Shown here: piece by piece, positions 19,020 to 34,011 of the stretch
How the letters are laid out: every line of letters starts with the position of its first letter
Position numbering within the stretch: position 1 is the stretch's first letter
From: Spirochaetia bacterium
GTDB lineage: Bacteria > Spirochaetota > Spirochaetia > Treponematales > Treponemataceae
DNA length: 36,229 nt
Direction: 5' to 3'
Assembly: GCA_022773305.1 (NCBI GenBank)
Contig: JALFAW010000046.1
Location: 1 to 36,229 of the forward strand
Position numbers and translations under genes: made by a program
Notes under the pieces: generated by a model
The model's database searches: none
What the model was told of the DNA's origin: nothing
Seen by the model: the letters and a program-made list of their open reading frames with translations, nothing else

Positions 19020-19232
19020 GGTCTGTCCCTGCATGTTCCTAACCCATTTGACAATTGTCCACCATATCACCCTAGAGCTTTATATCCATCAAATAATAAT
19101 TGTGGTGTGGAGAATGGTACTTCCATGGCTGTTAACGGACCAACAGCAACAGCAGGCGTTGGAAAAAATTGAAAAATTTCTATATAACAAATTACACTAA
19201 ATTTGAATTAATAGTTGGGAGGTCTGTCCCCC
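19020..19232 (+). repeat. Two GGTCTGTCCC direct repeats flanking a 190-bp segment
   Basis: Copies at 19020-19029 and 19221-19232 bracket an AT-rich segment containing an orphan coding remnant. The left copy touches the end of the MscS gene; the right one lies 14 bp before the HD-protein start codon. No terminator or -10 element is clear in the gap. Confidence 0.7.
19030..19172 (+). pseudogene. Possible C-terminal remnant of an unidentified gene
   Basis: Between the two repeats a frame without a good start encodes PNPFDNCPPYHPRALYPSN, then NCGVENGTSMAVNGPTAT and AGVGKN before TGA at 19170-19172. The composition (two Cys, aromatic and Pro residues, no lysine-rich noise) looks like real protein, not random AT-rich translation. 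No family was recognised. It is probably a decayed gene end carried with or left by repeat insertion. Confidence 0.35.
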
Positions 19233-31280: not shown

Positions 31281-32195
31281 TTATAAACATTTTTTTTCCA
31301 GGCAACAAAGTTCTAGTTTTGCAAAAAAATCTTCCAAAATATAGCGAGAATCAATCTGAGTGTAAATGCGGATTTTTGGAAGTTCAGAATAAAAAGATGA
31401 AGAAGTGTCCCCATTTACAAAAGGCGCATTGTGTACGATAAATTTTCCACATCCGGGATTTATAGCGATTGCAATTGCCGGGGAATCTCCCAAAGACCAG
31501 CTTTCGCCCTGAGTCCACGAAGCAAACTCAGAATTATTGTAATCAACCATCTGTTCAAAAAGATGCTTTCCTATTTTTCCACAAGGCAGTACTTTTTTCT
31601 GCAATTCAGCAAGCCCCACAGTGATTGTGCAGTAAACATCAGATGGAACAAGCCAGATGTCAGCTCCACTTGAAAGTACAAAATTTGCACCTGCAATATC
31701 ATTTCCAGCATTAAATTCTCTAAACGGAGCAGAAGTCTGCAAACCATGAGTTCCAATCCATATAATTGTCATTTTTTTTGTAATATCAGGAGCTTTCATA
31801 ATTGCCGCAGCAACATTTGTAATCGCACCCTGACATAAAACAAACAGAGGTTTTTCATCATTTTTCAAAGCTTCATTTATGATAAAATCGCTAGCAGCCG
31901 AAACACTTTTTACATTCTGACCAAAAGGTTGTGAATAATCAAGCGGAAATTCTTCCCCCATAAAAACAGGAATTTCCAGATTTATTGCATTCAAAATAGT
32001 GATAATTTCATCAAAACTCCGCTGAACAGTGCCTTTTCCATTAAAATGTTCAGCCAAAATTCCTTTAACAATCAGTTTCGGACTCAAAAGTGCATGAACA
32101 ATCGCAAAAGGATCATCAGCTTCACAAGCCGCATCAGTATCAATAATCACACGCACCTTTTTGTAATCAGGCACATCAAAAGAAAGTCGATTCAT
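31281..32195 (-). CDS. Nucleoside hydrolase (IUNH family)
   Basis: A 304-residue protein that should release the base from ribonucleosides. The N-terminal calcium-binding motif reads VIIDTDAACEADDPFAIVHAL, a variant of the family DTDxGxDDxxA with three extra residues. Later segments also fit: PVFMGEEFPL, LFVLCQGAITNVAAAIMKAP, and EFNAGNDIAGANFVLSS with the second Asp region. The longer spacing in the first motif marks a divergent branch, so base preference cannot be stated. It has no signal peptide. I chose the ATG at 32195, which has GGGGGA 5 nt upstream, over the frame beginning at 32231. It precedes the large lipoprotein gene by 73 bp on the same strand. Confidence 0.85.
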   Translation of the reverse strand: MNRLSFDVPDYKKVRVIIDTDAACEADDPFAIVHALLSPKLIVKGILAEHFNGKGTVQRSFDEIITILNAINLEIPVFMGEEFPLDYSQPFGQNVKSVSAASDFIINEALKNDEKPLFVLCQGAITNVAAAIMKAPDITKKMTIIWIGTHGLQTSAPFREFNAGNDIAGANFVLSSGADIWLVPSDVYCTITVGLAELQKKVLPCGKIGKHLFEQMVDYNNSEFASWTQGESWSLGDSPAIAIAINPGCGKFIVHNAPFVNGDTSSSFYSELPKIRIYTQIDSRYILEDFFAKLELCCLEKKCL

Positions 32196-32285
32196 AAAAT
32201 CCCCCATAAACACAGCATAAACACCGCACAAGCTTGTTTTTTATTCAAGATTATCAATTAATGATAAAGATTTCAATAATATTGA

Positions 32286-32631
32286 GGTCTGTCCCTGTTT
32301 TAATTAATGTGAGTAAAAAGGGGGGACACACCTCACGTAAAAAAAAGGTCGTACCCCACTTTAATGAAAATAATGGACAGACCTTGATAGATTTTGATAG
32401 ATTGATTAGGTGTGTCCCCTGTTTTTAAGCATGTTTTATGTGATTCAACAAATGACACATTTCAAATTAAATTGTTAAAAAGAGGACAGACCTTGTTTCT
32501 TGTGTTTTTCCAAGGTCGTACCCCACTTTAATGAAAAAAGGGACACACCTCACGCACAAATTAAATAAGGTCTGTCCCCTTTTTAACAAAGCAAGCTCTG
32601 TTCCCACTCTAATGAAAAACAGGGACACACC
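32286..32631. repeat. Cluster of ten alternating GGTCTGTCCC-type repeats (REPIN-like)
   Basis: The 672-bp gap between divergent genes holds forward copies at 32286, 32347, 32409, 32514 and 32569 and reverse copies at 32321, 32375, 32484, 32540 and 32622, strictly alternating. Cores vary among GGTCTGTCCC, GGTGTGTCCC and GGTCGTACCC. Each forward/reverse pair can fold as a hairpin with a loop rich in T/A and often ACTTTAATGAAAA. GGTCGTACCCCACTTTAATG occurs exactly twice. No coding sequence or transposase is present. Confidence 0.88.
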
Positions 32632-32867: not shown

Positions 32868-33767
32868 ATGAGTTACACTTTAAAAGAGAAATTTGGTGAT
32901 TTATTTGCGGAAATGGTTGCACATTCAAAAGCTGCCGCAAAAATTGATGAAACAAAAGTTTATGAAGAAGCAAATCCAGAAATGCGCAAATACATGTTTA
33001 AACTTTTGGATGACACTTTTTCTGCAGATTCGGGATTAGGAAATCTAGAAAATTTTAAAGATTTTTATGAAAAAGTTGTAAAACAAGGAAAATCTGGTTT
33101 AATTTTGATGGAACATTACACAAATCTTGATTTACCTGCAATAATCTATCTTTTACAGAAAGTTGGTGAACCTTGGGCTGATGATTTTGCTTCAAGAATA
33201 GTTGCTGTGGCCGGAATGAAACTGAACGAAGCAAGTGCAGGTGTACGCGCTTTTACAGAAGGTTTCACACGAGTTGTCATCTATCCTACCAGAAGTTTGA
33301 ATGCAGTAGAAGCAAAAGGCATTTCCCAGGAAGAGTTAAAAGCAGAAGAACAAAAAGCCAGAAAGATTAACTTTGCAGCAATGCGTGCAATGGACGCCTG
33401 CAAGAAACGTGGTCAGATGATTCTAGTTTTCCCTAGTGGCACAAGATATCGTCCTGGAAAACCAGAAACAAAACGCGGTCTTCGAGAAATTGACAGTTAT
33501 CTCCGCCTTTTTGATTACATGCTTCTTGTCGGAATAAACGGAAACTGTCTTCGCATCAATCCAGATAATCCTGATGATATGCTTGAAGATATTCTGGAAC
33601 CTGGAAAAGTAACTTTAACAGCCCATCCTGTTTTGGATTGCAAAAAATTCCGTGAAGATGTTCTTTCATCATTGCCTGCAGACGAACCTGATCCAAAACA
33701 AAAAACTGTAGATCAAGTTATGCAGATTTTAGATGAAATTCATAATCAGGTTGAAAGCCAGAATTAA
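32868..33767 (+). CDS. Glycerolipid acyltransferase (PlsB/PlsC-like, possibly glycerol-3-phosphate 1-O-acyltransferase)
   Basis: A 299-residue protein with the acyltransferase motif I HYTNLD (His83 to Asp88, HX4D) and motif III FPSGTR (188-193, followed by YRPG). The form FPSGTR (Ser in place of the usual Glu of FPEGTR), the helical N-terminal extension and the long insert between the motifs resemble the soluble chloroplast-type glycerol-3-phosphate acyltransferases more than compact PlsC. It should add the first or second acyl chain in phospholipid synthesis. There are no membrane spans, so it would be peripheral. AAGGA stands about 9 nt before the ATG. It is transcribed alone between repeat-rich gaps. 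Confidence 0.82.
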   Translation: MSYTLKEKFGDLFAEMVAHSKAAAKIDETKVYEEANPEMRKYMFKLLDDTFSADSGLGNLENFKDFYEKVVKQGKSGLILMEHYTNLDLPAIIYLLQKVGEPWADDFASRIVAVAGMKLNEASAGVRAFTEGFTRVVIYPTRSLNAVEAKGISQEELKAEEQKARKINFAAMRAMDACKKRGQMILVFPSGTRYRPGKPETKRGLREIDSYLRLFDYMLLVGINGNCLRINPDNPDDMLEDILEPGKVTLTAHPVLDCKKFREDVLSSLPADEPDPKQKTVDQVMQILDEIHNQVESQN

Positions 33768-33815
33768 AAATAAGTCCGTGTAACACAACAATTGGGAATA
33801 AATTTGGTAAAATAT

Positions 33816-33950
33816 CGAGTTTTATTTTTTTTATCTGGGTGGCTTTTTGCTTCGCAAAAAACAGGCTTTTCAGGGTTCCGGCGTCAAAGCGCCTTCATTC
33901 CTTCGCTACGCTTCGGAACTGGCTTCGCCAGCCCTTACAATCCTTGCCAC
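33816..33950 (+). repeat. GC-rich modular repeat before the IMP cyclohydrolase gene
   Basis: Closely matches the repeat at 1390-1577: the last 50 bp (CATTCCTTCGCTACGCTTCG through AACTGGCTTCGCCAGC to CCTTGCCAC) are identical, as is GGGTGGCTTTTTGCTTCGCA. It lacks the two hairpin modules of that copy and has CCGGCGTCAAAGCGCC where the other has ACGCTATCGCT. It lies in a 244-bp gap with no other signal besides AGGAG before the next ATG. Confidence 0.85.
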
Positions 33951-34011
33951 GAATCAAAATTGAAAACTTGATTTTGCACTTTATTAAAATTTATACTATT
34001 AGGAGAAATAA

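Follow-up and report, generated by a model that had tools for sequence, protein, structure and literature searches.

The repeat cluster at 32286-32631 of the window, the whole stretch of 36,229 nucleotides that was analysed, is best explained as an array of solo terminal-repeat copies of a TIRYT/RAYT-type Y1 (HUH) tyrosine transposase. We hold this explanation as a whole with a probability of about 0.8. Shared ends, multiple near-identical right ends, co-occurrence with the gene, clade-specific cores, intergenic location and turnover of units between sister species were all observed, and this enzyme would be the one which mobilises the solo copies. The window is contig C193 of G000, a draft genome of 3.1 Mb in 321 contigs from an uncultured Treponema whose closest named relatives are uncultured Treponema MAGs.

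The array, to which no strand is assigned, contains ten recognisable cores and one decayed core. It is located between divergent genes, with a nucleoside hydrolase (PF01156) gene on the left (31281-32231, minus strand) and a gene for a weakly acyltransferase-like protein on the right (32868-33767, plus strand). The forward copies F1 (32286-32295) and F5 (32569-32578) read GGTCTGTCCC, F2 (32347-32356) and F4 (32514-32523) read GGTCGTACCC and F3 (32409-32418) reads GGTGTGTCCC, all on the plus strand. On the minus strand, R1 (32323-32332), R4 (32540-32549) and R5 (32622-32631) read GGTGTGTCCC, R2 (32374-32383) reads GGTCTGTCCA and R3 (32483-32492) reads GGTCTGTCCT. F4 is an exact repeat of the F2 unit AAGGTCGTACCCCACTTTAATGAAAA. 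The ten cores follow the order +-+-+-+-+-, as the sequence-only reading had described, but the strictness which it claimed for this alternation did not hold. A decayed forward copy, F6 (GCTCTGTTCC, 32595-32604, plus strand), lies in the same unit context as other copies (AAGCTCTGTTCCCACTCTAATGAAAA, family D2), so the alternation is not strict and the order with F6 becomes +-+-+-+-++-. The whole window possesses 23 core copies when up to two mismatches are allowed; shuffles gave 6.7 +/- 2.6, and 0 of 100 reached 23. Five more exact cores (372, 470, 629, 19020 and 19221) are all on the plus strand and form no inverted pairs: a further solo core (372-381), two direct cores (470-479 and 629-638) flanking a stretch of about 150 bp with two inverted repeats (470-638), and two direct cores directly past the stop of an MscS-like gene (19020-19230).

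The earlier reading had linked the repeat to a RAYT gene, to be sought with this core at its borders, and such a gene was found in the genome. It encodes a Y1 transposase of 248 aa (G000:C227:4430-5173, equal to L007:1471-2214) and has two reverse cores upstream (-122 and -89) and one forward core downstream (+79). Near-identical right ends of this transposase unit were found in at least four places (C227, C6, C222 and C316), all ending at ...GGTCTGTCCCCTGTTTT, and an additional left end was found at C122. The right ends and the C122 left end are about 98-100% identical inside and unrelated outside. The outer flanks diverge right after ..CCCCTGTTTT or before AAAACAGGG.., so that the unit is bounded by AAAACAGGGACAGACCT... 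on its left side and by ...AGGTCTGTCCCCTGTTTT on its right. The shared ends, the same boundary and the different flanks together show that a gene unit present in several copies has the core as its terminal inverted repeat. Of the four right ends, three sit at contig ends of the 321-contig draft, as repeats in a draft assembly do, which also leaves room for assembly error.

The AlphaFold model of a 99%-identical copy from a sister genome (pLDDT 90) found its best fold match in TnpA-REP 4ER8, with Z 18.3 over 161 residues, and has an extra C-terminal helical part composed of helices 206-247. HTH_23 was matched by 12 of 37 relatives, with the Treponema protein itself below the match level. The HUH and Y---NP motifs are invariant in the 37 relatives (N59 H60 I61 H62; Y119, N123 and P124). 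The protein is related to NCBIfam REP_Tyr_transpos (NF047646; 55 bits, E 7.8e-15), at a score under the curated equivalog cut-off of 80 bits, and scored 22.7 bits with the IS200 profile, below its cut-off of 55 bits. The genuine IS200/IS605 TnpA genes of G000 were considered as the mobiliser and rejected, as their loci carry no core. A further Y1 domain was seen in L008 (G000:C209:1789-5055; hit L008:1501-1767), in frame within a frame of about 1,196 aa which, judged by its sequence, also encodes a putative type IIG restriction-modification-like protein. This domain is bounded by the palindromes GATTGCACAAGGGACTTAAGTCCCTTGTGCAATC and GACAAGGGACTTAAGTCCCTTG, each following a near-identical 16-bp direct repeat, GGCGGCAACAGMCGCG, and may represent a second system of transposase and palindromes whose insertion left the host frame intact.

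Census of the core GGTSTGTCCC in G000 gave 587 copies (283 plus, 304 minus) and none of the reversed control pattern. In a 0.99-Mb sample, the 12-mer had 187 exact and 61 one-mismatch copies, compared to 0 and 7 in reversed DNA. The consensus reads AAAACAAGGTCTGTCCCTGTTTT. Nearly all the cores are intergenic, with 11 of 175 lying within ORFs against 145 expected. Across the genus, a homologue of the transposase was found in 18 of 146 Treponema genomes. More than five copies of AGGTSTGTCCCY were present in 14 of these 18 and in none of the 128 gene-negative genomes, where the maximum was four (Fisher p 2.5e-16 across the 146 genomes, uncorrected for phylogeny or kinship). Congeners have between 0 and 575 copies of the core, a number that follows the presence of the transposase gene. 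Most full-length Treponema homologues of at least 45% identity have inverted cores on both sides, and other clades of the transposase have their own variant cores, GGGGTCTGTCCC or TATCCCTGTCCC, in their flanks. These variants were predicted from the flanks of the other-clade genes and then counted genome by genome, and they were abundant in the expected genomes. GGGGTCTGTCCC was counted 117 times in G014, 74 in G031, 68 in G010, 62 in G025, 49 in G140, 47 in G080 and 23 in G056, and zero times in G000, G131, G006 and 13 of 14 gene-free controls. TATCCCTGTCCCY was abundant only in G089 (37), G082 (35) and G080 (23). By these counts, three of the four gene-positive genomes which are without the first core have another one (G140, G082 and G089), while the fourth, G119, has neither the first core nor the variant cores counted. 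Cognate cores also crowd within 10 kb of the transposase gene in five genomes, own flanks excluded (observed/expected 18/0.46, 17/0.27, 8/0.36, 7/0.18 and 6/0.28). No such crowding was seen near one other transposase gene, in G034. The crowding may reflect local spreading or mark variable islands.

Orthologous sites in the sister genomes revealed rapid change of the units. The window locus in G006 has flanks of 99.7 and 97.6% identity, while its array spans 203 bp compared to 406 bp in G000 (both with margins). What differs are pieces with cores at their borders, in both of the arrays compared; the array is rebuilt between the sister species by gain and loss of units. At the corresponding locus of G131 the array is absent. 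In the 19020 region, the intergenic stretch of G006 is 154 bp shorter and keeps one core. The infC site carries the unit in G000 and G131 and neither core nor gene in G006. The site to the left of the C122 copy lies at the 3' end of an orthologous gene, where G006 carries a solitary core, AATAAGGTCTGTCCCTGTTTTATTA. In G000 that core is succeeded by this transposase unit, and in G131 by the left end of a different paralogue. The resident cores may serve as landing pads, or the solitary core may be a remnant, and under both readings the solo core is an element end. Single solo cores were compared between G000 and G006 in search of clean filled/empty pairs; in most intergenic stretches the divergence was too great for the exact junction to be read.

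On the basis of these observations, a mechanism can be proposed. The autonomous unit would be the element of about 0.93 kb, AAAACAGGGACAGACCT - transposase gene - AGGTCTGTCCCCTGTTTT. The enzyme would recognise the core and the T-tract end as single-stranded DNA and cut beside the T-tract, at a site which we infer. That end, by itself or together with the gene, would then be joined beside T-rich sites, often at a resident core, and resident arrays may grow or shrink via recombination or slippage between units. The shares of transposition and recombination in array growth are likewise apportioned by inference. It is conceivable, though somewhat doubtful, that this RAYT-type transposase still multiplies in the manner of an insertion sequence, takes its own solo ends as preferred landing pads and seeds repeats preferentially near its own gene. 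If true, the signature of this behaviour would be the presence, in sister species, of two different paralogues next to one shared resident core. The literature describes RAYTs as single-copy genes that do not copy themselves (PMC8049555), and IS-like copying of the transposase unit would therefore be unusual.

Some observations speak against the transposase-based explanation. Some array arrangements, with tandem spacings of 18, 20, 22, 119 and 147 bp, look like products of slippage or unequal recombination for which a transposase is not needed; direct arrays predominate elsewhere in the genome, for example one of seven units spaced by 18 bp, another of four spaced by 22 bp and one of six spaced by about 119 bp. 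The orientation of the cores showed no bias relative to GC skew (25 vs 26 clusters), which a Y1 enzyme acting on the lagging strand might give. G007, a Treponema genome of 94% completeness, carries 16 copies of GGGGTCTGTCCC, mostly in direct tandem pairs, and the transposase homologue was not found in it; these copies are a relic population or the gene was missed. Under another reading, host recombination and slippage alone, acting on relics of old transposase insertions, would have produced both arrays and dispersal with no current mobilisation in trans. The tandems with units 18-22 bp and 119/147 bp apart, the core-bounded differences of the G006 array and the short indels, which are the expected product of homologous exchange, agree with such an origin. 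However, the presence of solo cores in hundreds of intergenic places unrelated to one another requires an insertion step, and the near-identical transposase ends along with the enrichment near the gene suggest recent activity. We consider recombination alone to be improbable.

True REPINs, in which the transposase would act in trans on inverted core pairs as the form that replicates, with single cores left over by decay, are already disfavoured and appear quite unlikely. In their favour, several transposase genes have strong F-R palindromes on their left side (GGTCTGTCCCTGTTTTTCCTAAAAACAGGGACAGACC), most of the window array alternates, and short F-R/R-F pairs do occur (29 of the 90 neighbours no more than 60 bp apart, window excluded). 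But the genome-wide excess of inverted pairs which this reading predicts was not found, as 93 of 135 core neighbours up to 150 bp apart in the 0.99-Mb sample are direct and 42 inverted (binomial p 1.3e-5). Similarly, 19 of the 22 doublets in this sample are direct and only 3 inverted under the 200- or the 400-bp rule. The definition of REPINs requires over-represented inverted doublets (PMC3116915). GT[AG]G, the tetranucleotide at the foot of the canonical REP hairpin, is absent from the consensus AAAACAAGGTCTGTCCCTGTTTT. The REPIN-like alternating layout is thus peculiar to the window locus, an exception in the genome, and is not evidence for REPINs. An alternating array by itself does not identify REPINs, and here the genome-wide census shows the opposite orientation rule. 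Of the initial REPIN interpretation, the RAYT gene with the same core remains and the inverted REP pair as the replicating form does not.

The region as a whole folds better than shuffles (z -7.35 as ssDNA, -8.3 as RNA). The initial proposal that each neighbour pair can fold is weak: F-R neighbours in the cluster have folding z of -1.4 to -3.6, with +0.2 for F6-R5, the final pair of true neighbours. The strong inverted arms belong to non-neighbours, the best being 32472-32505 with 32556-32589, which joins R3 to F5 (z -7.0), followed by R1-F3 (z -4.7); the best-folding arms pair distant copies of like subtype. Core sub-families that may have spread separately had been suggested, and the subtypes were recovered genome-wide, with GGTCTGTCC, GGTGTGTCC and GGTCGTACC counted 144, 20 and 11 times in the sampled DNA. 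The changes between the cores had also been described as compensated-looking, and compensation is rejected. In the ten-copy reading, none of the five F-R neighbour pairs shares a subtype (CTGT/GTGT, CGTA/CTGT, GTGT/CTGT, CGTA/GTGT and CTGT/GTGT), so the core differences create mismatches rather than compensations, and window neighbours that never share a subtype also argue against true REPINs. A hairpin of a single unit can be drawn on the GGGACAGACC strand, with a 9-bp stem including one G-T pair. The consensus of this self-hairpin (AAAACA-a-GG TCTGT CC-c-TGTTTT) is complementary, but no column pair showed covariation beyond the marginals in 193 + 53 copies. The self-hairpin is therefore not claimed, and its want of covariation counts against the transposase-based explanation.

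That the core is instead a host regulatory site, an operator or promoter element for adjacent genes, is very hard to sustain, since its intergenic location and higher frequency between divergent genes (16 of 67 intergenic regions, vs 27 of 319 tandem and 4 of 52 convergent ones) stand against a congener copy number of 0 to 575 that tracks the transposase gene, its position as the precise termini of a gene unit with several copies, and tandem arrays with rapid turnover.

Among the known systems, TIRYT genes are flanked by TIRs with the motif GGGGWSAS, and TIR repeat families occur in dimers and clusters (Di Nocera et al. 2013, PMC3733652). Similarly, here a Y1 gene lies between inverted repeats (about -90 and +80), GGGGWSAS appears as GGGGACAG in the right end AGGTCTGTCCCC, and related repeats are dispersed singly, as dimers and as clusters. 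The known TIR families are 'moderately abundant' (PMC3733652), whereas here several hundred copies exist, mostly in direct arrays, along with several near-identical copies of the right end of the gene. The text of PMC3733652 has no mention of Treponema, and a literature text search with the core as letters gave only unrelated papers among the matches listed. Y1 HUH enzymes cut and join single-stranded DNA, and subclass 2.1 takes most of the TIRYTs (Quentin et al. 2018, PMC6006769). By its length (248 aa against a median of 238), its NHxH and Y---NP motifs, the FQ and SS motifs seen in the consensus of its family and its helix-turn-helix-like C-terminal tail, the protein appears closest to this subclass. 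Subclass 2.1 was reported without nearby REP-like sequences and with a mean within-genome copy identity of 49% (PMC6006769), unlike the dispersed cognate repeat and the 98-99% identical right ends found here. Like REPIN/RAYT systems (Bertels and Rainey 2011, PMC3116915), short intergenic repeats are tied to a Y1 transposase which is bounded by the same repeat and has the catalytic domain fold of 4ER8; the excess of inverted doublets and the GT[AG]G foot of the consensus are missing here. With IS200/IS605 the system shares the Y1 HUH catalytic domain and a gene unit at several sites, and it differs in having inverted terminal repeats, not subterminal hairpins, and Y---NP instead of Y---Q. The system fits a new, unusually abundant spirochaete member of the known, little-studied TIRYT/TIRtron repeat class. 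The origin of REP-like repeats, and whether long HTH-bearing Y1 transposases move them, is a standing question; Quentin et al. (PMC6006769) found no repeats for subclass 2.1, and Di Nocera et al. (PMC3733652) left mobilisation as a question. A genus in which some species have the gene and others do not, with hundreds of repeat copies and with cores that differ by clade, makes the pairing of enzyme and repeat directly testable.

A few further repeats were noted. L121:9984-10152 is a seven-unit 18-bp tandem of the variant AAGGACTGTCCCTGCTTT, and the GGACTGTCC variant, as in this tandem, also borders a transposase paralogue in G131:C69, which suggests paralogue-specific cores within one species group. 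Composite units (470-638 of the window; L055:6514-7093; L109:8326-8932) combine the core with a GAGTTTTGGC...GCCAAAACTC inverted repeat and a CTCGTG...CACGAG inverted repeat, and are arranged in tandem at 119- or 147-bp spacing as a mosaic of several repeat families. A separate high-copy intergenic repeat family of about 150 bp lies at 33797-33971 of the window, 3' of the acyltransferase-like gene, and each of three sister genomes has dozens of matches to it, at 71-100% identity.
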